DNA of 64,000 nt from Sneathiella aquimaris (GTDB lineage Bacteria > Pseudomonadota > Alphaproteobacteria > Sneathiellales > Sneathiellaceae), in assembly GCF_026409565.1 (NCBI RefSeq), contig NZ_CP112881.1, forward strand, positions 1,411,501-1,475,500, in the 5' to 3' direction. Positions 3,390 to 42,789 of this stretch are shown here, piece by piece. The position numbers were made by a program, and so were the translations under genes. The notes beneath the pieces are model-generated. The model did no database searches. It worked only from the letters and a program-made list of their open reading frames with translations, and was not told the DNA's origin. The stretch's first letter is position 1. Each line of letters starts with the position of its first letter.

Positions 3390-5459
3390 CTAATTGGGTT
3401 TTATCCAAACGGCGGTATCGTGAAAGGCTGCCCCTCCGTTCGGTTTGGCGGCATCTGACCCAACTAATATATTAATTCCAACTTTTTCGATGAAGAATTT
3501 CCCAGGCCAAATTCCTTCAACAATTACGGTTCCAGGCTGCATGCCATCAAAAATTTCGACGTGGATGAGCACCGAGCCACGCTTGTTTCCAATCCGCACG
3601 ATATCCTCTTTTGACACCTTCAATCGAGATGCATCCTCGGGATGGATCATTACGGTCGGCTTCTTTTCTTTCTTCAATGAAGAGGGCGTTGCCGTAAAGG
3701 ATGTATTGAGGAAGTTACGAGAGGGCGCAGTGACAAGTCGGAACGGTGTCTCGTCTGTAGCTTTTTCAATAACGTCCCAGTGATCTGGAAAGGACGGCAT
3801 TCCGGAAAAATCGGCTCCAATGCGCGACCAGTCTGCGGCGAAATGAAATTTTTTGTCTTTGTGACCAAAGCCTTTCAGATAGTGGGACTGTTCAAAAGAG
3901 GGTTGTGTGTTCTTCCATTTATCCTGACGGAGAGTTTCAACATCCGGCCACCCCGAGGCCTTGAGGGTTTCGTCGATAATTTCAAGAGGGGTCATTTCAA
4001 AGCCCCGGTGTTTTGCACCCAGCCGTTCGGCAAGGGCGCAGATAACATCATGATTGGAGCGGGCTTCCCCAAGAGGTTCGATAACTTTGGGGCCAAGCAT
4101 AATATGGTTCTGGGCGCCGCCTTGATAAATATCATCATGTTCAACGAAGGTTGTCGCAGGCAGGATAATATCCGCCATCTTGGCAGTTTCGGTCATGAAT
4201 TGTTCATGAACGGCAACGAACAGGTCCTCGCGGGCGAAGCCTTTATGTACTTTTGCAAGATCGGGCGCGACATCCATCGGGTTGGTACTTTGGATCAACA
4301 GCGCCGTCACAGGAGGGCCATCATCGCCCAAATCCTGCTTATTGCCAGTTAGCACTTCCCCAATCCGGGACTGGTCGAGCATTCTGACTTTGGGATTTAC
4401 GACATCCAATCCTTCAATCAGCTTTTTATTCCAATGGTAGATTGCTGAATTGGTGTGTAATGCACCGCCGCCTTCATATTGCCAGGCACCGGTAACCGCC
4501 GGGATACAGCTTGCCGCATGCATGTTCACTGCGCCATTTCGGCTGCGCGAAAAGCCATAGCCTAAACGGAAAAAGGATTTTGGTGTGGTACCAACAAGAC
4601 GGGCAAATTCCCGGATCTGTTCGGCAGGAACTCCTGAGATTTCCTCGGCCCATTCGGGTGTACGTGTTTCCAGATGCGCTTCAAATTCAGCATGGTTTGC
4701 CGTAAATTTATCCAGATAGGCGCGATCCGCCAGATTTTCCTTGAACAAAACATGCATAACCGCACAGGCAAAAGCACCGTCTGTTCCAGGTTTGACCATA
4801 ACGTGCATGTCGGCAGATAGCGCAGTTGCGTTCCGATAGGGATCAATGACGACAATCTTGGCGCCCCGCTCTTTCCGGGCGCGGGTTGCGTGGGTCATGA
4901 CATTAATCTGCGTATGCACTGCATTAGTGCCCCAGATGACAACAACGTCTGATTTTGCAATTTCAGTCGGGTCTGCTCCCCGATAGGCACCGGCACCTGC
5001 CATCCAGCCAGCGAAGGCTAGATTTACACAGATTGTTGAAAATTGGCCTGAGTAATTTTTTGCATGTCTGAGGCGATTGATACCATCCCGCATGACCAGT
5101 CCCATCGTTCCTGCATAGTAGTAGGGCCATATGGTTTCTGAACCGAACGCTTCTTCGCGTTTGTTGAATTCCTGAACAATGGTGTCGAGTGCTTCATCCC
5201 AGCTGATTTGTTCCCACTCTCCTGACCCTTTTGGGCCCGTTCTTTTCAAAGGGTGCAAAATTCGATCTGGATGATGGGTTCTTTCGGCGTAGCGTGCGAC
5301 TTTCGCGCAAATGACCCCGGCGGTATAGCTGTTGTCAGAGGCGCCCCGGACGCGGCCAATTTCCTGTGGGCCCAGCCGCTCGATTTCAAGGGCGCAGGTG
5401 GATGGACAATCATGGGGACAGGCTGAGGCTCTGACTTCTATAGAATTTGCAGTTTTCAT
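3390..5459 (-). CDS. molybdopterin-dependent oxidoreductase, single subunit
   Basis: A 689-residue protein of the DMSO reductase superfamily. It starts with a Cys motif for a 4Fe-4S cluster (C14, C18, C22, C51), followed by the HHPDRILHPLKRTG and WEQISWDEALD blocks shared by these enzymes. The C-terminal part is the molybdopterin-dinucleotide-binding domain (VMIHPEDASRLKVSKEDIVRIGNKRG). No twin-arginine signal is visible, so it is probably cytoplasmic. It has no partner iron-sulfur or membrane subunit next to it. It resembles the broad family of alphaproteobacterial oxidoreductases opening with CPHDCPSTC; the substrate is unknown. Confidence 0.88.
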   Translation of the reverse strand: MKTANSIEVRASACPHDCPSTCALEIERLGPQEIGRVRGASDNSYTAGVICAKVARYAERTHHPDRILHPLKRTGPKGSGEWEQISWDEALDTIVQEFNKREEAFGSETIWPYYYAGTMGLVMRDGINRLRHAKNYSGQFSTICVNLAFAGWMAGAGAYRGADPTEIAKSDVVVIWGTNAVHTQINVMTHATRARKERGAKIVVIDPYRNATALSADMHVMVKPGTDGAFACAVMHVLFKENLADRAYLDKFTANHAEFEAHLETRTPEWAEEISGVPAEQIREFARLVGTTPKSFFRLGYGFSRSRNGAVNMHAASCIPAVTGAWQYEGGGALHTNSAIYHWNKKLIEGLDVVNPKVRMLDQSRIGEVLTGNKQDLGDDGPPVTALLIQSTNPMDVAPDLAKVHKGFAREDLFVAVHEQFMTETAKMADIILPATTFVEHDDIYQGGAQNHIMLGPKVIEPLGEARSNHDVICALAERLGAKHRGFEMTPLEIIDETLKASGWPDVETLRQDKWKNTQPSFEQSHYLKGFGHKDKKFHFAADWSRIGADFSGMPSFPDHWDVIEKATDETPFRLVTAPSRNFLNTSFTATPSSLKKEKKPTVMIHPEDASRLKVSKEDIVRIGNKRGSVLIHVEIFDGMQPGTVIVEGIWPGKFFIEKVGINILVGSDAAKPNGGAAFHDTAVWIKPN

Positions 5460-5668
5460 AGGGGTACCATTACATTTTTGCAGAAAAATCGTTTGCGCCG
5501 CATCGTTGTTTTATTTTGCAGACTAATGGCTTCGGAGTGGGGCCGCAATATCAGATTAAATTTGCGAAGCTGTTTTGTTGCAATTTCGTGCAAAGAGTCT
5601 GGCGTTAGCGGCTACTAAAAGATATATGCTTGTTTTGATTCTGATTACACGGGTGTACATCTGTCGAT

Positions 5669-6394
5669 ATGTTTAGGCGGTTCCTTAAAAGTGATGCGAT
5701 TAAAGGCCTGGCAGGTTTACTTGCTGCGCTTTACATCTGGTTGGTTTATCGAACGAGCCGCTGGACTGTTATGAACGCAGGGCAAGCCCACCGATATTTG
5801 GCAAACGAAGACCCGTTCATACTGGCCTTTTGGCATGGTCGGCTTTTGATGATGCCGACGGTGGTTCTGAAAAAGTCTAAAGTTCATGTGCTTATTTCTC
5901 ATCATGCAGACGGTGAAATTATTTCTCGGGCCATAGGACATTGGGGGCAGAAAAGTATCCGTGGTTCGACTTCCAAGGGAGCGCTTCCCGCGATAAAGGA
6001 TATGCTGCGCGTCCTGAAAGATCGAGAAATTGCGGTTATTACTCCTGATGGACCTCGCGGCCCTCGCATGCGGGTTCAGGACGGCGTAATCAGAATGGCG
6101 GCTATGTCCGGAGTGCCTGTAATTCCGGTTTCTTTTTCGTCAACTCGCGGAAAATGCCTGTCGAGCTGGGACCGGTTTTTTGTTGCAAAGCCTTTTGGCA
6201 AAGGAGTTGTTTTGTGGGGAGACCCAATTCACGTGCCGCGCAAAAATGAAGATGGCGCTTATGACAACGCAAAAAAAGAAATCGAAAATCAATTAACTGA
6301 ATTAACACAACAAGCGGATACTCTGTGCGGACAGGTTCCGGTTGAACCAGACGATTGCAGTCCATCTCAAGAATTCAAGAACAAGGTAACGTGA
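5669..6394 (+). CDS. DUF374 lysophospholipid acyltransferase-like protein
   Basis: A 241-residue protein that opens with a hydrophobic anchor (about residues 10-27) and carries FWHGRLLMMP, SHHADGEIISRA and TPDGPRGPR, the hallmarks of DUF374. This family belongs to the glycerolipid acyltransferase fold. Its place as first gene of a waaA-lpxK-lpxL-like operon points to lipid A or Kdo-lipid assembly, as in other alphaproteobacteria. The stop overlaps the GTG of waaA by 4 bp. No clear ribosome site precedes the ATG. The acyl acceptor is not known. Confidence 0.88.
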   Translation: MFRRFLKSDAIKGLAGLLAALYIWLVYRTSRWTVMNAGQAHRYLANEDPFILAFWHGRLLMMPTVVLKKSKVHVLISHHADGEIISRAIGHWGQKSIRGSTSKGALPAIKDMLRVLKDREIAVITPDGPRGPRMRVQDGVIRMAAMSGVPVIPVSFSSTRGKCLSSWDRFFVAKPFGKGVVLWGDPIHVPRKNEDGAYDNAKKEIENQLTELTQQADTLCGQVPVEPDDCSPSQEFKNKVT

Positions 6395-7671
6395 CCACAA
6401 TGAATTTGTTTATGTATAATAGCTTGTTGTGGCTTACCTCTCCCTTTGTAAAGGCGCATCTTAAAAAACGAATGGCTGACGGTAAGGAAGACGCAAATCG
6501 CTTTTATGAACGGTTTGGGGAACCTTCTCGTGTGCGTCCCGGTGGTCAGATTGTCTGGATCCATGCAGCCTCGGTTGGTGAGGCGATGTCAGCGCTGCCA
6601 CTCATTCAGGCCTTGCTTCTTATCAAACCGGACCGTGTTGTTCTTTTGACAACCGGCACCGTAACGTCAGCCCGTTTAATGGAAGATCGTCTGCCAACGG
6701 GCGCTTTTCATCAATATATTCCCATTGATACGAAGGAAGCGGTTTGTCGTTTTCTGGACTATTGGCAGCCACAGATCGCGATCTTGATGGAATCGGAAAT
6801 ATGGCCTAACCTGATAAATCAGACTGCTGCGCGGCAGATTCCAATGTTGATGCTGAACGCGCGCATTACAACCTCTTCGTTTAATCTTTGGCGAAAAACG
6901 GGTGGACTGGCGAAGAAACTTATAAAAAAGTTCAAATACATTCATGCTCAGTCCGAAGTGGCAGGAGAGCGTTTGAAATATCTGGGCGCTGAAAAGGTTG
7001 AAGTTCTTGGGAACCTGAAATTCTGCTCACCTCCTTTACCGTTTGTAAAAGAGCCATTTTCGATTTTAAGACAGGCCCTTGATAACAGGAAGGTTTGGCT
7101 GGCTGCCAGCACCCACAAAGGCGAGGAAGCCATTGTTGCTGCGGCACATCTTGAATTGAGAAGCAAGATTAAGAGATTGGTGACCATTATCGTACCCCGT
7201 CATCCGGAGCGCGGTGATGAGATCATGGCAAAGTTGCAAGAGGCGGGTTTTAATGTTGCCCGTCGTTCTTTGGGTCAGGGGATTGCTGAAGATACAGAGA
7301 TCTATCTTGCTGATACAATCGGTGAGTTGGGTCTGTTCTATCGTCTGTGCGATGTGGTCTTTATTGGTGGGTCGCTTGTGCCGAAAGGCGGCCAAAATCT
7401 TTTGGAGGCAGCCCGACTGCATTGCGCTATCATGCATGGTCCGGACATGAGCAATTTTGAAGAAATTGCAGAAGACATGAAAAACAGTAATGCTGTTGTG
7501 ATGGTCAAGGATGGAAGTGAGCTTATTCATGCAACACATAGATTATTGTCTGAAACACGAATTCGCGGTGAGCTGGCGAGCAACGCAACTCAAGTCGTTA
7601 AATCGGGCGAGTCTTTGCTGGCCCACCTCGTGTCGGTTATCGAACGGGAATTGGTAGAGGCAAATAAGTGA
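6391..7671 (+). CDS. waaA: 3-deoxy-D-manno-octulosonic acid transferase
   Basis: Transfers Kdo from CMP-Kdo to lipid IVA at the inner membrane. The motif HAASVGEAMSALPLI holds the expected catalytic Glu (E64 counted from the chosen start). IMESEIWPN and the later GGSLVPKGGQNLLEAA are the acceptor- and donor-side family signatures. I chose the GTG at 6391 (426 residues), which overlaps the upstream stop as GTGA with AAGG four bases before; the ATG at 6400 is the alternative, and the open frame reaching back to 6355 is unlikely. The gene ends in a GTGA overlap with lpxK, so the operon is tightly coupled. Confidence 0.93.
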   Translation: MTTMNLFMYNSLLWLTSPFVKAHLKKRMADGKEDANRFYERFGEPSRVRPGGQIVWIHAASVGEAMSALPLIQALLLIKPDRVVLLTTGTVTSARLMEDRLPTGAFHQYIPIDTKEAVCRFLDYWQPQIAILMESEIWPNLINQTAARQIPMLMLNARITTSSFNLWRKTGGLAKKLIKKFKYIHAQSEVAGERLKYLGAEKVEVLGNLKFCSPPLPFVKEPFSILRQALDNRKVWLAASTHKGEEAIVAAAHLELRSKIKRLVTIIVPRHPERGDEIMAKLQEAGFNVARRSLGQGIAEDTEIYLADTIGELGLFYRLCDVVFIGGSLVPKGGQNLLEAARLHCAIMHGPDMSNFEEIAEDMKNSNAVVMVKDGSELIHATHRLLSETRIRGELASNATQVVKSGESLLAHLVSVIERELVEANK

Positions 7672-8654
7672 GAGCACCAGAATACTGGATAAAAGGGTCG
7701 CAGTCGGTTTTACCAACGATACTGACGCCTTTCAGTATGCTTTACGCCCTGATCGATGGCATCAATCGAAAAATGACCAACACCCGATCTGTTGACATCC
7801 CCGTCGTCTGTATCGGAAATATTGTTGCTGGGGGGGCCGGAAAAACGCCAGTTGCGATCGAAATTGCACGCTTTCTAATCCATTCAGGTTGGTCTGTTCA
7901 TTTTCTTTCTCGCGGGTATGGCGGAAAAGAAAAAGGCCCTTTGTGCGTTTCACTGGATGTGCATCGCGCAGAAGATGTTGGGGATGAGCCGCTCATTTTG
8001 GCATCCGTTGCACCAACATGGATAGCGTCCGATCGATATGCCGGGGCTACAAAAGCAGTTGAAGCTGGTGCTGATATAATTCTGATGGATGATGGCTTTC
8101 AAAATCGATCGTTGAAGAAGGATCTGTCACTTTTGGTTATTGATGCCGGATATGGGATCGGAAACGGTCGGTTGTTACCGGCAGGGCCCTTACGCGAAAC
8201 AGTGGCCAGCGCCTTGCAGCGAACTGACGGTGTTATTGTGGTTGGCGAGAAGACCGACTTTTCGTTTTTAAAAGGAGTATCTGTACCGGTCTTTTCTGCC
8301 CGTATCGTCCCGCATGCTCTGCAAAAAGAACTGGTCGGTGAAAAGGTTGTGGCATTTGCCGGTATCGGTCGACCCCAAAAGTTCTTTGATAGTCTGATAG
8401 ATGCTGGTGCTGAAGTGATTGAAGCACTCGAATTTCCGGACCACTACTCATTCAAGCGTGATGACATTATGAAACTTGTGGAAAAAGCAGCGCTTCACAA
8501 TGCAGCTCTAGTGACAACACGGAAAGATTATGTTCGTTTGTCCGATGAAGCCCGCATGATGACAACCGTATTTGATATTGATTTGATGTTCGAACAGCCA
8601 GACCGTTTACAGCAGCTTCTCAAAGGTATTACGGGGAGCCGCGAGCATGCCTGA
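7668..8654 (+). CDS. lpxK: tetraacyldisaccharide 4'-kinase
   Basis: Phosphorylates the 4' position of the lipid A disaccharide. The 328-residue protein has the expected membrane-associated N-terminus and a P-loop AGGAGKTP at about residues 54-61, followed by LSRGYGG and the DDGFQNRSL block, all LpxK signatures. The TTRKDYVRL motif near the C-terminus is also conserved. The GTG start overlaps the waaA stop (GTGA), and its 3' end overlaps the next acyltransferase gene by 8 bp. Length is normal for the family. Confidence 0.95.
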   Translation: MRAPEYWIKGSQSVLPTILTPFSMLYALIDGINRKMTNTRSVDIPVVCIGNIVAGGAGKTPVAIEIARFLIHSGWSVHFLSRGYGGKEKGPLCVSLDVHRAEDVGDEPLILASVAPTWIASDRYAGATKAVEAGADIILMDDGFQNRSLKKDLSLLVIDAGYGIGNGRLLPAGPLRETVASALQRTDGVIVVGEKTDFSFLKGVSVPVFSARIVPHALQKELVGEKVVAFAGIGRPQKFFDSLIDAGAEVIEALEFPDHYSFKRDDIMKLVEKAALHNAALVTTRKDYVRLSDEARMMTTVFDIDLMFEQPDRLQQLLKGITGSREHA

Positions 8655-9534
8655 AAAAACAGGTTCGCGGATTTCGCTGCGCTATCGCATAGAGTGGTTG
8701 GCAGTCGTATTCTTTTTTTGGTTTTTCAAACTGCTTGGGCAAAAACGCGCTTCTTCATTTGGTAGCTGGATTGCCAGAAAAATCGGTCCGTATCTAAAAG
8801 CCGATAAAACGGCACGCAAAAATTTGTCGAAAGCGTTTCCAGACTGGTCGCCGGAAAAGCGGGAAGAGGTTCTGGATAGGATGTGGAGCAATCTAGGCCG
8901 CAATGCTGCAGAATTGCCGTTTATAAAGGATATGGATTTTCAGGATCCGGATGTTGAACTGGTTGGCGGAGATTACCTTGATGCGTATGTAAAAGCACCG
9001 CAAGCCGCATTTTTTCTGACCGGGCATTATGGTCCTTGGGAATTGACGATTGCGGCAGGAAAATACTGCAAAGTTCCGTTGAGTATTATTTATCGGGCGG
9101 CCAACAATCCGTTGGTGGATGCGTATTTCCAGCAAGAACGGTTTAGCCGCGACTACAGCTTTATTCCAAAGGGAACGGCTGGTGCCCGTGGGATTTTGAA
9201 AGCAATTAAGAAAGGCGAAGCCATCGCCCTGTTAAATGATCAAAAGCAGAATACCGGGCTTCCTATTCCGTTCTTTGGTCGCGATGCCATGACAGCGCCG
9301 CCTATTGCGGAACTCGCCTGTAAATTTGACCTGCCGATTTATCCCATACGGGCTGAACGCCTGGACGGTGGGAAAAAGAGGGTAACCGTGTCGGCACCCA
9401 TTTTCCCACCATCGTCTGGAAATCGGGAAAAAGACGTGGTTGCATTGCTCACAACCATCAACGAATTATATGAACAATGGATAACTGAAAAACCTGATCA
9501 TTGGTTTTGGGTCCATAATCGTTGGCCAGAATGA
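8647..9534 (+). CDS. LpxL/HtrB-type lipid A acyltransferase
   Basis: A 295-residue membrane-anchored acyltransferase (hydrophobic segment around residues 17-30) that adds a secondary acyl chain to Kdo-lipid A. The catalytic HxxxxE motif is seen in TGHYGPWE, and LLNDQKQNTGLPIPFFGRDA is the second family block. It is the last gene of the lipid A operon and its start overlaps lpxK by 8 bp. LpxL, LpxM and LpxP cannot be told apart by eye. The stop lies 6 bp from the convergent leucine dehydrogenase stop, with no clear terminator between. Confidence 0.92.
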   Translation: MPEKTGSRISLRYRIEWLAVVFFFWFFKLLGQKRASSFGSWIARKIGPYLKADKTARKNLSKAFPDWSPEKREEVLDRMWSNLGRNAAELPFIKDMDFQDPDVELVGGDYLDAYVKAPQAAFFLTGHYGPWELTIAAGKYCKVPLSIIYRAANNPLVDAYFQQERFSRDYSFIPKGTAGARGILKAIKKGEAIALLNDQKQNTGLPIPFFGRDAMTAPPIAELACKFDLPIYPIRAERLDGGKKRVTVSAPIFPPSSGNREKDVVALLTTINELYEQWITEKPDHWFWVHNRWPE

Positions 9535-37639: not shown

Positions 37640-38743
37640 CTATTTTTGCCCGATTACCCGACGGCCGGAATTGATCTGTTTTAGATATTCAATACCTTCA
37701 TCAGCAATGGCATAGCCGACCATATCCTCACCTTCCTGATCAATTTCATCCATATCGATCCAGTGGGAATAGAGGGGGCGTGTGCGATCTGTGATAATGC
37801 CAGATTTAAGAAGCGTTTTGACCAAGACCCGGAAGATATTGGTGGATTCTTTGAGGGAATCCCGACGGTCGTTGTCCGTGTAAACTTCACGGCATGCATC
37901 ACGAACCCATTCCCATTCCAGTCCGAATTGTTGGTAAATTACCTGTTTCTGACGAATGTTGACCAGATTGAACAGCACAGTTTCAAAGCATTTTGCCGCC
38001 CAGTCTTCGACGATGTCATGTTCTTCGCGAGAGAGTTTCGGAATGGTTCTGTCAGCCCAGATTTTTCCAAATTTATGGTGAAACGCTTCGTCCGTCATGA
38101 CGAGCTGGGTCAGTCGTTTCAGCAGTGGATCATTTGTTTTTGCGTGGAAATTGGCAAAGGCGCCCATTGCGAGACCTTCAATAAGCATTTGCATTCCGAC
38201 CAGTTTTTTATAAACCTGCTCAGCACCAACCAGTTCATTCATCAAACCACCGAGGGCTTCTCCAACAGGGTAGGGGCTTCCCCAGCGGGTCTGAATGTAA
38301 CGGCTAAATGCTGTCACATGCCTCGCTTCCTCTCTGGTTTGGTTGGAGGCATATTCCTGAGCCCCCGGATCCAGCAGGATATGGCACAGGCTCGCACTCA
38401 GGGAGAGCGCGCCTTGTTCGCCATGTAGAATACCTGAAACGCCCCAGCGTACGCTTTCATTTGCCAGCTTGATCTGTTGTCCTTCATCAAGTCTGTCGGC
38501 GACGGCGCTTTGCAATTCCGGAATGGTTTCTTTTGGCATGATCATTTCATTTTTCATGTCAAAAGGCGTTGAAAAGTCGATATAGGCAGTATCGAGAGGA
38601 TCCCAGAAATGATCATGGGTTGCCGAGATGATTTTATCAAATGCATCCGTTCTTTTTCCATAGCGGACTGTTTCAAGCATGGCTGGAAAATCAGATGGGG
38701 CAACCGAGTCGTATATTTCATCCCGAGTTATATGTTCGTTCAT
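37640..38743 (-). CDS. diiron ferritin-like protein (R2/AurF-type), function unknown
   Basis: A 367-residue all-helical protein with the ligand pattern of a non-haem diiron oxidase: E109 (HGEQGA), E139 and H142 (REEARH), E189 (LIEGLA) and E219 and H222 (TDEAFHH). That is E, ExxH, E, ExxH, as in ribonucleotide reductase R2, AurF and bacterioferritin. It is too long for a storage ferritin. The N-terminal 60 residues and the C-terminal 100 residues do not match a family I know. It stands alone, after a 16-bp palindrome. An oxygenase or desaturase role on a lipid or amine is possible but unproven. Confidence 0.75.
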   Translation of the reverse strand: MNEHITRDEIYDSVAPSDFPAMLETVRYGKRTDAFDKIISATHDHFWDPLDTAYIDFSTPFDMKNEMIMPKETIPELQSAVADRLDEGQQIKLANESVRWGVSGILHGEQGALSLSASLCHILLDPGAQEYASNQTREEARHVTAFSRYIQTRWGSPYPVGEALGGLMNELVGAEQVYKKLVGMQMLIEGLAMGAFANFHAKTNDPLLKRLTQLVMTDEAFHHKFGKIWADRTIPKLSREEHDIVEDWAAKCFETVLFNLVNIRQKQVIYQQFGLEWEWVRDACREVYTDNDRRDSLKESTNIFRVLVKTLLKSGIITDRTRPLYSHWIDMDEIDQEGEDMVGYAIADEGIEYLKQINSGRRVIGQK

Positions 38744-38789
38744 TGGGTTTCCTCTCAGTTTGCTCTATTTTGAGCTTTCTTATTGCTTT

Positions 38790-38805
38790 ACGTTTACGTA
38801 AACGT
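38790..38805. promoter_or_regulatory. 16-bp perfect palindrome upstream of diiron gene
   Basis: ACGTTTACGTAAACGT is a perfect 16-bp palindrome 47-62 bases before the start. It resembles TTTACGTWAACGTWAA-like sites I recall for LiuR-type regulators of branched-chain amino-acid use. No regulator gene is nearby. Confidence 0.6.
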
Positions 38806-38892
38806 TAATTACAGTTTACACTATTTGTTAGTAAAAGACAATAAAGGGATCATGTTAAGTGACGCAGCGTTCGCAAGGAACTGTGTCTGTCT

Positions 38893-40038
38893 TCAGTTTT
38901 TTTTATAAGGCGAGTGATTGTTTAAATACTGGATTTCGGCGTTCATATCCCGAGTTTCTGCTTTCAGAAAGTCACCAACGGCGTCGTGAAAACCCGGATC
39001 CCGCATCCAGTGCGCGGAATAGGTTTTTGTTGGGAGGTAGCCCCGTGCAAGTTTATGAGGGCCTTGGGCACCCGCCTCCACGCGTTTCAATCCATGCTCG
39101 ATTGCATAGTCGATTGCCCGGTAATAACAGGTCTCAAAGTGAAGAAAACGATGGTCTTCGATGCAGCCCCAGTAGCGACCATAAAGGCATTCATCACTTT
39201 TAAGGTTCAGGGCGGCGGCAATGTAGCGGCCTTCGCGTTTCACCAAGAATAACACAACATCTGATCCCATGGCAGGCCCCAGAAGACTGAAGAAGGATCG
39301 TGTTAAATAGGGGGTGCCCCATTTGCGATTTCCCGTGTCGATATAGAATGCAAAAAATGCGTCCCAATGTTCCTCGGTAATCTCAGCCCCTTGTTTAATC
39401 TCGAAAGTCAGATCCGCGTGGTTGGCTTCTTTTCTTTCTTTTCGGATGGCTTTGCGTTTGCGGGATGATAGCTGGCTTAAAAAGTCGTCAAAGTCAGTAT
39501 AATCTTGATTGACCCAGTGAAACTGTTCACCGGTGCGGATCAGATACCCGTTGTCTTCAAGAAGGGGAAGGTCATGTTCCTGAACGAAGGTCGCATGAAC
39601 AGAGGAAATTCCCAGTTTTGTTGCAATTTGTTTTGCCCCGGACATAAGCAAGGATTTGTACTCGTTCTCCTTTTCTCCGCCAATGGCAAGGAAGCGGGGC
39701 CCGGTGACCGGGGAAAAGGGAATGGATAGCTGCAGTTTAGGATAGTAGCGACCGCCGGCTCGTTCGTAAGCATGAGCCCAGCTGTGATCGAAAACATACT
39801 CTCCCTGACTATGGCCTTTGATATATTGAGGGGCAACGCCCACAACTTTATCGTGGTCTCTAAGGACCAAGTGGTATGGCATCCAGCCTGTTTCAGCGGT
39901 CGCAGAGCCGCTTTCTTCCAGAGCGTTTAGAAAACCGTATTGAATAAACGGGTGGTTGCTGCTGACGCACTTATTCCATTCCTGTTCTTCTACTTCTGAA
40001 ATAGTTTGAAGGGTCGAGATGGAAAGTGGGTTTGTCAT
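38893..40038 (-). CDS. FemAB/COG3146-like GNAT-fold protein
   Basis: A 381-residue soluble protein of the COG3146 (PF04339) family, with a FemAB-like acyltransferase fold. NHPFIQYGFLNALEESGSA is the N-terminal block, and FDHSWAHAYERAGGRYYPKLQLSIPFSPVTGPRFL is the diagnostic middle. YGRYWGCIEDHRFLHFETCYYRAIDYAIEHGLKRVEAGAQGPHKLARGYLPTKTYSAHW is the C-terminal signature. Members are often called peptidoglycan biosynthesis proteins, but acceptor and donor are unknown. It follows the GDPD gene by 33 bases and is probably the last gene of that operon. Confidence 0.85.
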   Translation of the reverse strand: MTNPLSISTLQTISEVEEQEWNKCVSSNHPFIQYGFLNALEESGSATAETGWMPYHLVLRDHDKVVGVAPQYIKGHSQGEYVFDHSWAHAYERAGGRYYPKLQLSIPFSPVTGPRFLAIGGEKENEYKSLLMSGAKQIATKLGISSVHATFVQEHDLPLLEDNGYLIRTGEQFHWVNQDYTDFDDFLSQLSSRKRKAIRKERKEANHADLTFEIKQGAEITEEHWDAFFAFYIDTGNRKWGTPYLTRSFFSLLGPAMGSDVVLFLVKREGRYIAAALNLKSDECLYGRYWGCIEDHRFLHFETCYYRAIDYAIEHGLKRVEAGAQGPHKLARGYLPTKTYSAHWMRDPGFHDAVGDFLKAETRDMNAEIQYLNNHSPYKKN

Positions 40039-40071
40039 AATACCAGAACCAGACGAAGCTTTGTTACAAGA

Positions 40072-40860
40072 TTAGCGGATATGATCTACAGGCAGGCTTT
40101 CAAATATAATATTGTCGGCCCGTTTTTTTGCGATAGCCAGATGGTCTTCTGTTTGAACAGTCCACGCTAGAAGCTTCATATTGTGTTTTAAGGCACTTTT
40201 TACCACCCAATAACTGATATCTTTCACATCATACCCGATATAGTGCGGGCGGCTGATGAAATTCGTTAGAAGGTAACGCATCATGATTTTCTTGAAAAAC
40301 GAGACATGGGCTGGCGGGTGTTTCATCGCCAATTGGCCTCTGATGACATCAGGGGCATTGAGACGAAACCACTTCAAGATATTGGGATCAAAGCTTTGAA
40401 TGCAGAAAGCGCCAGAATAGTCTTTCAGGCATTCCCATACTTTTGCCGCCAGCAACAGGTTATCGATTGGACTTCTTTTAAGTTCAATAACCAGCGGAAC
40501 GGCGCCGTTCACCAAGGCCAATACGTCTTTGAGGGACGGAATGGTGTCTTGGGAGTTGTTCAGGCGTATATGATGCAGCTCTTCAGACGGAACCTCTGCA
40601 ATGGATCTGCTGTCCGCAGTCATCCTGGACAGTGCCGTATCGTGAAAAACGAACGGGACCAAATCCGCCGAAAGATGAACATCCAATTCGATTGCAAGGT
40701 CGGCATCCATGGCTTTTTTAAAGGCCGTCAGGCTGTTTTCTTCTGCGCCCGATTGTGCATCATGAAGGCCACGATGCGCAATCGGTATAGCTGTTAGCCA
40801 ATCAGGAAGCGTGGCGGGCTTACTTGATCTCAAAAACAGCATCAATTTCAACAGCAACAT
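40072..40860 (-). CDS. glycerophosphodiester phosphodiesterase family protein
   Basis: A 262-residue GDPD-fold enzyme that would cleave glycerophosphodiesters to glycerol 3-phosphate and an alcohol. IPIAHRGLHDAQSGAEENSLTAFKKAMDADLAIELDVHLSADLVPFVFHD holds the catalytic His and the metal-binding Glu/Asp of the family. The first 13 residues may be an anchor or may not be translated: the frame overlaps the ridA gene by 41 bases, and an ATG at 40842 is a second choice. No clear signal peptide is seen. It lies between a RidA gene and the FemAB-like gene. Confidence 0.87.
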   Translation of the reverse strand: MLLLKLMLFLRSSKPATLPDWLTAIPIAHRGLHDAQSGAEENSLTAFKKAMDADLAIELDVHLSADLVPFVFHDTALSRMTADSRSIAEVPSEELHHIRLNNSQDTIPSLKDVLALVNGAVPLVIELKRSPIDNLLLAAKVWECLKDYSGAFCIQSFDPNILKWFRLNAPDVIRGQLAMKHPPAHVSFFKKIMMRYLLTNFISRPHYIGYDVKDISYWVVKSALKHNMKLLAWTVQTEDHLAIAKKRADNIIFESLPVDHIR

Positions 40861-41287
40861 TCAAAGGAAGGGCATTTGTACCAACCGCGAAACGCGCATG
40901 TCGCCCCGCATCTCCAAAGACCTCAACCATTAGATCGGATGCACCGTTAATGACCGTCGGTTGTTGTGCAAATCCGTCAACGCAATTTACAAAACCGCCC
41001 AATTTTACACAGCGTGTCACCCGGTCCAGATCTCCGCCGCATGCCGCTTTTACCTGGGCCAGAATATTCAGGGCGCAGACGCGCGCACATTCCGCGCCTT
41101 CTTCGACTGTAAATTCTTTGCCAACCTTGCCCTGAAACGTGATGGCACCATCGACAAAGGGTACCTGTCCCGAAACAAATACAAGGTTGCCAGAAACAGT
41201 GTAGGGAATGTAATTCGCGGCAGGCGCGGCTGCTTCTGGAATTACAAGACCAAGTTTTTCAAGTTGGGCGTCAATTTTTCCTGACAT
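40820..41287 (-). CDS. RidA family protein
   Basis: A 155-residue enamine/imine deaminase-fold protein of the longer RidA subgroup. YTVSGNLVFVSGQVPF, CALNILAQVKAACGGDLDRVTRCVKLGGFVN and GRHARFAVGTNALPLNVAVEIDAVFEI are the family blocks; the Arg near residue 130 would bind the keto acid carboxylate. It follows the aldehyde dehydrogenase by 26 bases and overlaps the GDPD reading frame. RidA-GDPD-COG3146 neighbours are a set I recall from other alphaproteobacteria. The physiological substrate is probably 2-aminoacrylate-like. Confidence 0.88.
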   Translation of the reverse strand: MSGKIDAQLEKLGLVIPEAAAPAANYIPYTVSGNLVFVSGQVPFVDGAITFQGKVGKEFTVEEGAECARVCALNILAQVKAACGGDLDRVTRCVKLGGFVNCVDGFAQQPTVINGASDLMVEVFGDAGRHARFAVGTNALPLNVAVEIDAVFEIK

Positions 41288-41313
41288 GCGTTGTTATTTC
41301 CTCTTTATTTTCA

Positions 41314-42789
41314 TTAACCTCCGGGGCGCCCACCGCCACCATCGGTAATCCGGATCCCTACATTCTTGGTTTGAACGTAATTTAGCAAGGCCTCTTGTCC
41401 TTTTTCTCGACCATACCCCGATCTTTTTGTGCCGCCGAACGGTGTTTCAATGCCGCCCGCGAACCATTCGTTGACGAAAATCTGACCCGCAACCAATCGA
41501 TCAGCAGCCCAATGCGCCGTTGAAAGGTCTTTAGTGTAAAGACCTGCGCAAAGACCATAATCTGTCCCATTGGCAATCGCAATCGCCTCTTCTGGGTCGT
41601 CGTATGTAAGGACTGACAAAACAGGGCCAAATACTTCTTCTTGTGCGATCGTCATAGAAGGGGTGACGTTACTGAAGATTGTTGGTTTGATGAAATGTCC
41701 GTTCATTTCCTCAATGCGGCCACCACCGGTCACAGCTTCAGCACCATCCTGTATGGCCTCTTTGCACATGGCGTCAATTTTTTCCGCTTGCTGTCCTGAA
41801 ATGACGGGCGTGATGTCGTGCCCGTCAATTCCCGCGCCGATCGTCAGACCAGCCGCTTTTTGTGCAAGCTTTTCAACAATCTGATCGCGGAGACTTGCCG
41901 GTACGATAAGGCGAGACTGGGCAGAGCAGACTTGGCCTGCATGGGTGAAAATGCCGGATGCTGTTGAGTTAATCGCCTGATCGATATTTGCGTCCGGGAA
42001 GACGATTCCGGCAGACTTTCCGCCCAACTCCATGATGCAGGGCAGAACACGTTCTGCGGCGGCATGGAGAATGGACTGACCCGTTTTCAGCGAGCCTGTG
42101 AACACGATGTGATCGATGTCCGGATGAGAGACGAGGGAGGCCCCACAGTCATGTCCGTACCCTGATACGATATTAACGGCACCGGCGGGTACACCTGCCC
42201 GGTGACACGCTTCAGCGATGAAATAGGTCGAAAGCGGTGAAAGTTCGGGAGACTTCAAGACGACCGTGTTTGCCGTTGCTAACGCGCAGGCGACCGAGCG
42301 GGCGGCAATTTGAAGAGGAAAATTCCAAGGCACAATTTGAGCAGAGACACCAAACGGAGAGGGGATCGTGTAATCCAGATAATCCGAACCCAGTGGGATC
42401 ATACGCCCTTCTAGCTTATCTGCAAGTCCACCATAATAGGTAAAATAGCGTGCAGCGGCGAGGGCTTCGTTTTTGCCGCCTGTCAGGGTTTTCCCATTGT
42501 CCAGGCATTCCGCCAACGCAATTTCATCCGCCATTTCCGTCATGTGACGGGCAATTTCAAACATCAAGGCACCGCGATTGGTCGGGCGCATGTTGTATAA
42601 TACACGAGAATTGAAGCAGGTGCGTGCAGCCGTAACGGCTAGATCGATGTCTTCCTGTGTTGCGCGGGCGATTTCAGCAATCTGTAATCCAGTCGCCGGA
42701 TTTTCGATTGAGATACGATCACCATTGACGCCATCTACCCAGTTGCCGCCAATATAATTTTTCCAGTATTTTTTAAGTTCTTGTGACAT
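41314..42789 (-). CDS. NAD(P)-dependent aldehyde dehydrogenase
   Basis: A 491-residue ALDH-superfamily enzyme. The catalytic Cys lies in GQVCSAQSRL and the general-base Glu in MELGGKSAGIVF; the binding loop for the coenzyme is FTGSLKTGQSI. PWNFPLQIAARSVACALATANTVVLKSPE is the usual substrate-entry region. Closest by eye are betaine-aldehyde or gamma-glutamyl-gamma-aminobutyraldehyde dehydrogenases; the exact aldehyde cannot be fixed. It appears to be the first gene of a unit with RidA. The 205 bases before it contain no clean operator. Confidence 0.9.
   Translation of the reverse strand: MSQELKKYWKNYIGGNWVDGVNGDRISIENPATGLQIAEIARATQEDIDLAVTAARTCFNSRVLYNMRPTNRGALMFEIARHMTEMADEIALAECLDNGKTLTGGKNEALAAARYFTYYGGLADKLEGRMIPLGSDYLDYTIPSPFGVSAQIVPWNFPLQIAARSVACALATANTVVLKSPELSPLSTYFIAEACHRAGVPAGAVNIVSGYGHDCGASLVSHPDIDHIVFTGSLKTGQSILHAAAERVLPCIMELGGKSAGIVFPDANIDQAINSTASGIFTHAGQVCSAQSRLIVPASLRDQIVEKLAQKAAGLTIGAGIDGHDITPVISGQQAEKIDAMCKEAIQDGAEAVTGGGRIEEMNGHFIKPTIFSNVTPSMTIAQEEVFGPVLSVLTYDDPEEAIAIANGTDYGLCAGLYTKDLSTAHWAADRLVAGQIFVNEWFAGGIETPFGGTKRSGYGREKGQEALLNYVQTKNVGIRITDGGGGRPGG

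Follow-up and report, generated by a model that had tools for sequence, protein, structure and literature searches.

The diiron gene and its locus

The gene described here encodes a protein of 367 residues and lies in a 64,000-nucleotide stretch of Sneathiella aquimaris DNA (hereafter the window), part of a host genome of 3.94 Mb in a single contig. The original prediction had placed an uncharacterised diiron protein here without giving a strand; the reading frame is real, lies on the minus strand, and has an ATG preceded by GAGAGGAAAC, a good ribosome site. The gap upstream of the gene is 149 bases long and contains a perfect palindrome, a putative operator separated from the ATG by 43 bases, together with a second, overlapping copy (Table 1).

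Table 1. Features of the diiron gene and its upstream region (positions within the window)
Feature	Position	Strand	Remarks
Diiron gene	37640-38743	minus	367-residue open reading frame
E109 codon	38419-38417	minus	proposed ligand
E139 codon	38329-38327	minus	proposed ligand
H142 codon	38320-38318	minus	proposed ligand
E189 codon	38179-38177	minus	proposed ligand
E219 codon	38089-38087	minus	proposed ligand
H222 codon	38080-38078	minus	proposed ligand
Perfect palindrome, putative operator	38787-38802		TTTACGTNNACGTAAA (minus strand TTTACGTAAACGTAAA); TTTACGT-N2-ACGTAAA
Second operator copy, overlapping	38793-38808		one mismatch, 6-base shift
FemAB-like/GNAT gene	38893-40038	minus	adjoins the diiron gene upstream, same strand
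ALDH, RidA-like, GDPD and FemAB-like genes	38893-42789	minus	closely packed genes, all in the same direction, upstream of the diiron gene

The FemAB-like/GNAT cluster occurs near the diiron gene in 34 fetched loci (some genomes being represented twice), and clusters matching the size of the ALDH/RidA/GDPD/FemAB run recur near it in part of the genus. A function read from these genus neighbours (FemAB-like, GDPD, RidA, ALDH and ClpS/ClpA) was rejected, as none of them travels with the diiron gene outside the genus in the clusters inspected. In Reyranella loci the gene is flanked by purine genes, and in Parvibaculum and some further families by mmcB/APH/RegAB-like genes; these neighbourhoods look like inherited position.

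Metal ligands and predicted fold

E109, E139, H142, E189, E219 and H222 had been proposed as a complete diiron site, and all six stand at the positions claimed, with E139-H142 and E219-H222 as the sole two ExxH motifs of the protein. By themselves, two ExxH motifs in 367 residues are weak evidence. What lifts the ligand set above chance is its invariance among homologues: all six residues are unchanged in 163 core homologues, bar one row with X masks at positions 219 and 222, and the same holds for 16 of 16 homologues of a second clade. Beside the ligands, His107 and Arg141 are likewise invariant in both groups. The family profile also aligns all six residues with what we take to be the ligand positions of aldehyde deformylating oxygenase, ADO (4rc6 and others).

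An AlphaFold2 model built with 39 aligned sequences is all-helical (pLDDT 83, pTM 0.85), with weak parts at residues 1-13 and 26-44. Each of the four ligand motifs is predicted to sit on its own long helix (residues 87-122, 126-153, 177-202 and 206-236). The original prediction would fail if the six residues did not come together in the structure, and this placement of the motifs bears on that point indirectly. A helical bundle with one E or ExxH motif per helix is the mark of the ferritin-like dimetal-carboxylate superfamily, to which the modelled protein would belong.

Comparison of the model with solved structures by VIA-align gave matches to AurF (2jcd, Z 18.3, rmsd 4.1 over 272 residues; 3chu, 18.3, 3.6 and 261), to CmlI (5hyh, Z 18.3, rmsd 3.4 over 259), to a putative R2 protein (2rcc, Z 17.9, rmsd 4.0 over 242) and to R2lox structures (Z 17.7, rmsd 3.1-3.5 over 223-231). 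Acyl-ACP desaturase structures were absent from the 50 VIA matches listed, an absence that carries no weight. Since scores differing by less than 1 were treated as tied, the fold cannot choose among AurF, CmlI and R2lox, a choice that the residue tests described below do make. The best 50 of 329 Foldseek rows were all RNR R2 proteins, with a best E of 3.1e-3 and none below 0.001.

An uncharacterised family of dimetal-carboxylate proteins

In searches of Pfam and NCBIfam, the protein stayed below the cut-off for each model matched. The best Pfam match was PF11583 (AurF), with 28.4 bits over residues 32-296 against a cut-off of 29.6. Among the 39 aligned members, Pfam matches at E ≤ 0.01 comprised AurF in 36, Ald_deCOase in 35, RNR small chain in 16, DUF455 in eight and PaaA_PaaC in seven. 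PF00268 matched 16 of the 39 weakly (best 2.2e-4), and the best E for PF11583 was 7e-10; individual PF11583 scores were not listed, so some members may pass its cut-off. For acyl-ACP desaturase there was no Pfam match at E up to 10, a search in which the HMMER filters drop weak matches.

Residue tests sharpen this picture. The radical Tyr of R2 lies four residues after the first His ligand, a position held here by Phe146. Among the 163 core homologues, 152 have F there and 11 have Y, and the 16 second-clade homologues divide into nine with F and seven with Y. AurF carries a seventh ligand, a His that precedes the last Glu ligand by four residues; the corresponding residue here is Val215, and the 163 core homologues have V (135), A (15), T (12) or I (1). 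Storage ferritin and membership of the class I R2 proteins were both rejected on the Pfam and NCBIfam scores and the residue tests. The earlier description therefore holds, by which this is an uncharacterised dimetal-carboxylate protein that belongs with neither the storage ferritins nor the normal R2 proteins. Literature searches yielded no paper recognised as describing the family among the matches listed.

Scores within the family are sharply two-peaked: the 163 core sequences lie at 544-713 bits, whereas the second clade comprises 16 sequences at 78-137 bits and a single outlier at 38; the homologues in these sets are distinct by sequence stretch only, so near-copies remain. Core matches show 54% identity and above, with strong conservation over the whole length. 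A long branch separates the two groups in a tree that combines the protein from the window with 130 sequences, thinned by hand from the 180 of the family, and that drew a long-branch warning. A family match of any kind was found in 50 of 289 alphaproteobacterial genomes and a core match, by hand count, in 41. There are several paralogues per genome, with up to five core copies listed in one, again by hand count. Members of the second clade also come from records of Rhodococcus, Streptomyces, Burkholderia and Nonomuraea. A plasmid search returned six records, five of them distant (24.9-31.7% identity) and one a core member from Tistrella (58.9%), and a phage search with the diiron protein gave no match. 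Metagenome-assembled genomes labelled Betaproteobacteria, Asaia, Rhizobium and Deltaproteobacteria (L045, L073, L096 and L097) have core genes close to alphaproteobacterial ones, and L073 and L096 fall inside the Reyranella group of the tree; these four are probably mislabelled bins.

A palindromic operator upstream of the gene

Because the upstream FemAB-like/GNAT gene is co-directional with the diiron gene, the latter is the only gene here that the operator can serve. With two mismatches allowed, the window contains two sites against 0.14 expected from 100 window shuffles. The copy upstream of the diiron gene is the only perfect one in the whole genome, and at up to one mismatch the genome has sites in three places, with six matches per strand against two per strand for a reversed-pattern control.

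The operator is conserved among close relatives, being found within one mismatch in 22 of 23 orthologues from the genome's family, its far end lying 55-72 bases before the start codon. The remaining orthologue (L020) has no placeable start and was scored as a miss, and a fragment (L028) was left out of the count. One genome of the genus (G015) gave no match. More broadly, the operator occurs at up to two mismatches in 35 of 163 distinct core upstreams against five of 653 other genes in the named loci, and all five of these, as we judge from the coordinates, are turned towards the core gene and have its site in common with it, in one intergenic region. In 1,025 single-base shuffles of core upstreams, none fell below three mismatches.

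The operator is also retained in several other genera, and 16 of 17 motif rows fall within one 22-row clade of the 131-sequence tree (SH-aLRT 99). Upstream of 128 of the 163 distinct core genes it is absent (more than two mismatches), the named loci of Parvibaculum and Reyranella among them, and it thus marks one clade rather than the family.

Other operator sites and the proposed regulon

The second of the three places in the genome is a locus where three copies of the operator, two of them overlapping with a 6-base shift, lie directly upstream of a MerR-family regulator gene, at 6512-6955 of locus L234. This gene is followed by genes for a thiolase, a FadB-like 3-hydroxyacyl-CoA dehydrogenase/hydratase, a FadE-like dehydrogenase and an acyl-CoA dehydrogenase, the last named by eye. 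The third place lies between an SCP2 protein gene and an operon encoding an SDR, a carboxyltransferase (beta), an acyl-CoA dehydrogenase, a biotin carboxylase (alpha) and a further dehydrogenase-like reading frame. The carboxyltransferase scores 791 bits to geranyl-CoA carboxylase (GCC) beta against 543 to methylcrotonyl-CoA carboxylase (MCC). In excerpts of earlier work, the two are told apart by a glycine that is present, and a three-residue insertion that is missing, in GCC (PMC4673880). In an alignment with positions counted by hand, the carboxyltransferase has the GCC-type Gly and lacks the three-residue MCC insertion, and by its sequence the carboxylase is assigned to the geranyl-CoA type.

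Similar targets recur in other genomes. When 20 genomes were scanned with one mismatch allowed, 18 had sites; among the matches listed, the numbers per strand were 0-7 for the operator and 0-5 for the reversed-pattern control. On the same basis, the core carriers G098 and G033 had no site. Among 20 site-bearing regions from nine other genomes, five held the MerR gene, seven the SCP2/SDR-carboxylase locus and three a locus of a FadE-like dehydrogenase, an MBL-fold protein, a crotonase and an SDR (names partly by eye). Targets like those of the host genome thus account for 15 of the 20 regions, the other five being without assignment to lipid genes. The recurrent operator adjoins the FadE-like locus in three other genomes of the genus (L248, L249 and L251); at that locus, the window's own genome has no operator at up to one mismatch.

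The palindrome corresponds to what we take to be the LiuR consensus. An operator common to acyl-CoA catabolic operons and conserved between species is what a LiuR-like MerR regulon would show, and on sequence evidence the conserved operator places the diiron gene in a regulon of lipid and isoprenoid acyl-CoA catabolism. From its position and recurrence, we infer that the MerR protein binds the palindrome. To our knowledge, geranyl-CoA degradation as described (presumably by the Atu pathway) needs no oxygenase, so co-regulation need not mean participation in the same pathway.

In excerpts of published work, LiuR is a repressor from the MerR family that acts on the catabolism of branched-chain amino acids in Proteobacteria (PMC3223726, PMC5343134), and an "ILV box" regulon has been linked, again in excerpt, with butyrate assimilation in Rhodospirillum rubrum (PMC7238569). 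The arrangement here resembles LiuR regulons in its MerR-family regulator and in operator copies placed before the regulator's own gene and acyl-CoA catabolic operons. It differs in its targets, which are beta-oxidation, geranyl-CoA carboxylase and the diiron protein, the likeness to LiuR being one of family; the excerpts of PMC3223726, PMC5343134 and PMC7238569 make no mention of a diiron protein as a target.

Neighbours of relatives and electron donors

Eight nearby proteins were scanned without revealing a reductase or ferredoxin domain, and none of the 13 Fer2 matches of the genome lies in the window, in agreement with the earlier claim that the gene has no such neighbour. From this the original prediction had concluded that electron donor and substrate are unknown, which stands insofar as the gene here has no nearby partner. 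It needs amending in that relatives do have partners and the operator points to a lipid and isoprenoid regulon.

To survey the neighbours of relatives, 60 regions were fetched, of which ten were second-clade and two core regions (L168 and L211) were dropped because the gene caller missed the core gene, leaving 48 usable. Neighbour labels were the best BLAST match to about 25 chosen reference proteins, on genes called outside the window by a simple codon-usage script that leaves some starts and small or high-GC genes unsure. In a first test on all 48 regions, 27 of 192 near genes were labelled against a permutation mean of 16.2, and one of 5,000 permutations reached as high. Two regions that had suggested labels (L174 and L177) were then removed, and 46 remained for within-region permutations. 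Enoyl-CoA hydratase-like genes made up 11 of 180 genes within two genes of the core gene against one of 354 at least four genes away (0 of 10,000 permutations). A four-label acyl-CoA set gave 18 of 180 near against 13 of 354 far (13 of 10,000), and an eight-label set gave 20 of 180 against 16 of 354 (32 of 10,000). AMP-ligase alone was not significant (5 of 180 near against 4 of 354 far; 1,112 of 10,000), nor was P450/Fer2 in all 48 regions (4 of 192 against 2 of 367; 4,034 of 10,000). Among labels tested singly, enrichment was clear for crotonase only.

Individual regions add further detail. In one other genome, three acyl-CoA dehydrogenases surround a core gene. In another (L174, 7717-15314), a row of core, Fer2, P450, P450, GDSL, core and AKR genes forms a candidate alkane or lipid oxidation cluster, and its second P450 matches CYP153A7 (3rwl) at E 1.6e-175. 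In a third (L213 of genome G057, 3620-9162), probably a Tistrella, a PaaA/PaaC-like gene immediately precedes a core gene whose operator has two mismatches, and a radical SAM protein and a Rieske ring hydroxylase are encoded upstream. The Tistrella label comes from a genome under the same genus label whose coordinates equal those of the Tistrella plasmid match.

Some relatives, such as the core genes of L174 with their ferredoxin, have electron donors close by. In three genomes, second-clade genes adjoin, or lie one gene from, members of one reductase cluster, a scanned member of which has FAD, NAD and 2Fe-2S domains, and a second-clade copy in Rhodococcus is followed by FdxA. The 13 Fer2 matches of the host genome include a 359-residue reductase and a 109-residue ferredoxin that resemble these partners of relatives.

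Co-occurrence across genomes

Co-occurrence was counted in the 289 alphaproteobacterial genomes, 41 of them core carriers (assigned by hand at better than 1e-90) and 248 non-carriers, at chosen E thresholds of 1e-80 for CYP153-like P450, 1e-185 for GCC and 1e-60 for PaaE, a catabolic control. Without correction for phylogeny or shared descent, CYP153-like P450s were present in 29 of the 41 carriers against 12 of the 248 non-carriers, and geranyl-CoA-type carboxylase in 17 against 14. PaaE occurred in 10 of 41 against 28 of 248 (odds ratio 2.5, p 0.04). With the genus excluded, the odds ratios were 71 for CYP153-like, 10 for GCC and 1.5 for PaaE; counted by family, a genome with a CYP153-like gene was also found in 15 of 19 core-bearing families. 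Apart from the 3rwl-matched copy of L174, the label CYP153 is our assumption for these P450s. In G134, G220 and G265, some CYP153-like copies have an internal stop codon, their sequences suggesting decaying paralogues.

A search of the host genome found no P450, so the link with CYP153 does not apply to it directly. That search also found no protein of the FA_desaturase family (AlkB-type), and with neither enzyme in the genome the host's diiron protein is no helper of a P450 or FA_desaturase. The idea of CYP153 as a required partner is further weakened by the occurrence of P450/Fer2 within two genes in just two of the 48 regions.

Proposed function and alternatives

These results are most economically explained by a diiron oxygenase that oxidises chains and is controlled by a LiuR-like regulator. 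The 367-residue protein would be a non-heme diiron (possibly Mn/Fe) oxygenase that activates O2 and represents an uncharacterised ferritin-like family at the level of ADO, AurF and R2lox. It would oxidise the chain of a hydrophobic acyl substrate, most likely a long-chain or methyl-branched (isoprenoid) one, and the products would enter acyl-CoA catabolism. A LiuR-like MerR regulator may switch the gene through the palindromes at 38787-38808, together with the beta-oxidation and geranyl-CoA carboxylase operons, and electrons may arrive in trans from ferredoxin or flavin/2Fe-2S reductase proteins encoded elsewhere in the genome. Taken whole, as a diiron oxygenase of fatty or isoprenoid acyl catabolism under such a regulator and with electrons in trans, this account strikes us as probable by a modest measure.

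The ligand set, the fold class, the operator with its conservation, the genes behind the other sites and the catabolic neighbours of some paralogues were all shown by computation. Ligands and fold argue for dimetal O2 chemistry. The operator, which the gene shares with two operons of the host genome for the degradation of fats and terpenes, and the neighbours of paralogues argue for a probable role in fatty or isoprenoid acyl breakdown, and the partners of relatives for an electron supply by ferredoxin or a flavin/2Fe-2S protein. That the enzyme is an oxygenase, and not an oxidase or desaturase, is what we infer, along with its electron donor and substrate class. One-carbon loss of the ADO kind, desaturation and hydroxylation would all fit, and N-oxygenation would fit least.

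A first alternative, which we consider rather unlikely, is deformylation as in ADO, whereby a fatty or isoprenoid aldehyde would be split with O2, leaving the chain one carbon shorter and removing a methyl-branch block before beta-oxidation. Such a reaction would suit a branched-lipid regulon. ADO is also the best sequence match over the diiron core, with 37 of 39 members matching the NCBIfam model at E ≤ 0.01; ADOs come first when the family profile is run against solved structures (best E 7.6e-4), the six ligands correspond one to one, and the motifs GEQ, ExRH and DE..H..FG..W are common to both. However, the protein lies under both cut-offs, with 23.6 bits against 222.65 for TIGR04059 and 22 against 28 for PF11266 (Ald_deCOase). 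The ADO chains matched have 212-265 residues, whereas the protein here has 367, with additional N- and C-terminal helices, and an acyl-CoA catabolic context. Moreover, no acyl-ACP reductase-type gene was found among the eight neighbours scanned.

Quite unlikely, too, is an oxidase or desaturase of fatty acyl chains resembling R2lox, in which O2 would remove hydrogens without insertion of oxygen. The host lacks a membrane FA_desaturase and could therefore find a soluble desaturase useful, and R2lox shares the fold, at nearly as good a Z score, and the six-ligand pattern. Against a desaturase stands the want of any acyl-ACP desaturase match in Pfam. R2lox membership itself was rejected, as the protein scores 20.3 bits against a cut-off of 194 for NF006200 (matched by 16 of the 39 members at E ≤ 0.01) and has no Val-Tyr pair. 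In excerpts of PMC10867098, this pair forms the ether cross-link of R2lox, three residues after the first Glu and five before the third, positions held here by Ala112 (Ala in 163 of 163 core homologues) and Met184 (Met in 158, Leu in five). The excerpts also report alkane oxidation by a Geobacillus R2lox, described as an alkane hydroxylase, whose double ligand mutant had no significant loss of activity, which makes the precedent uncertain (PMC10867098).

The protein might instead be non-catalytic or protective, a sensor of O2, peroxide or iron that is merely induced during growth on lipids. No dedicated electron donor adjoins the gene in the host genome, and gene order beyond the genus is not conserved with it, as this idea would allow. 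It nonetheless appears very unlikely given the whole-length conservation among core matches, the several paralogues per genome, some of them beside catabolic enzymes, ferredoxin or P450, and the relatives near a flavin/2Fe-2S reductase.

Least probable of all is an N-oxygenase acting on an amine in the manner of AurF, which has in its favour the best Pfam match, the lead of AurF and CmlI in the VIA list and a distant relative whose Streptomyces gene cluster includes adenylating enzymes and carrier proteins, but against it a score just under the PF11583 cut-off, the absence of the seventh His in all 163 core homologues, and a regulon and enriched neighbours of lipid catabolism rather than an amine biosynthesis cluster. 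The Streptomyces gene (L136, on a plasmid of Streptomyces sp. NBC_00536) lies among genes for AMP-binding enzymes, carrier proteins, DAHP synthase and anthranilate synthase.

Significance

Ferritin-like diiron enzymes carry out hard oxidations of C-H and C-C bonds, and several of their families are without assigned substrates. What is new here is the predicted control of a diiron gene by a palindromic operator common to lipid and terpene operons. The core clade is strongly conserved and occurs in 41 of 289 genomes, yet the members tested have no Pfam or NCBIfam model of their own. For the diiron oxygenase proposed here, the operator points to acyl-CoAs of fatty or isoprenoid chains as inducers, to growth substrates suited to a knockout and, through relatives, to the kind of electron donor.

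As a more tentative possibility, this may be a new family of soluble diiron oxygenases whose transcription is tied to that of geranyl-CoA carboxylase and beta-oxidation genes. Such enzymes would open saturated or methyl-branched (isoprenoid) chains in bacteria which, as here, show no P450 and no FA_desaturase, and multiplied paralogues could serve different chains in CYP153-bearing degraders. CYP153, AlkB and LadA are entry enzymes of hydrocarbon and lipid breakdown. If the diiron protein does start the breakdown of isoprenoids or alkanes, a soluble enzyme would join these three in the marine turnover of hydrocarbons and lipids.
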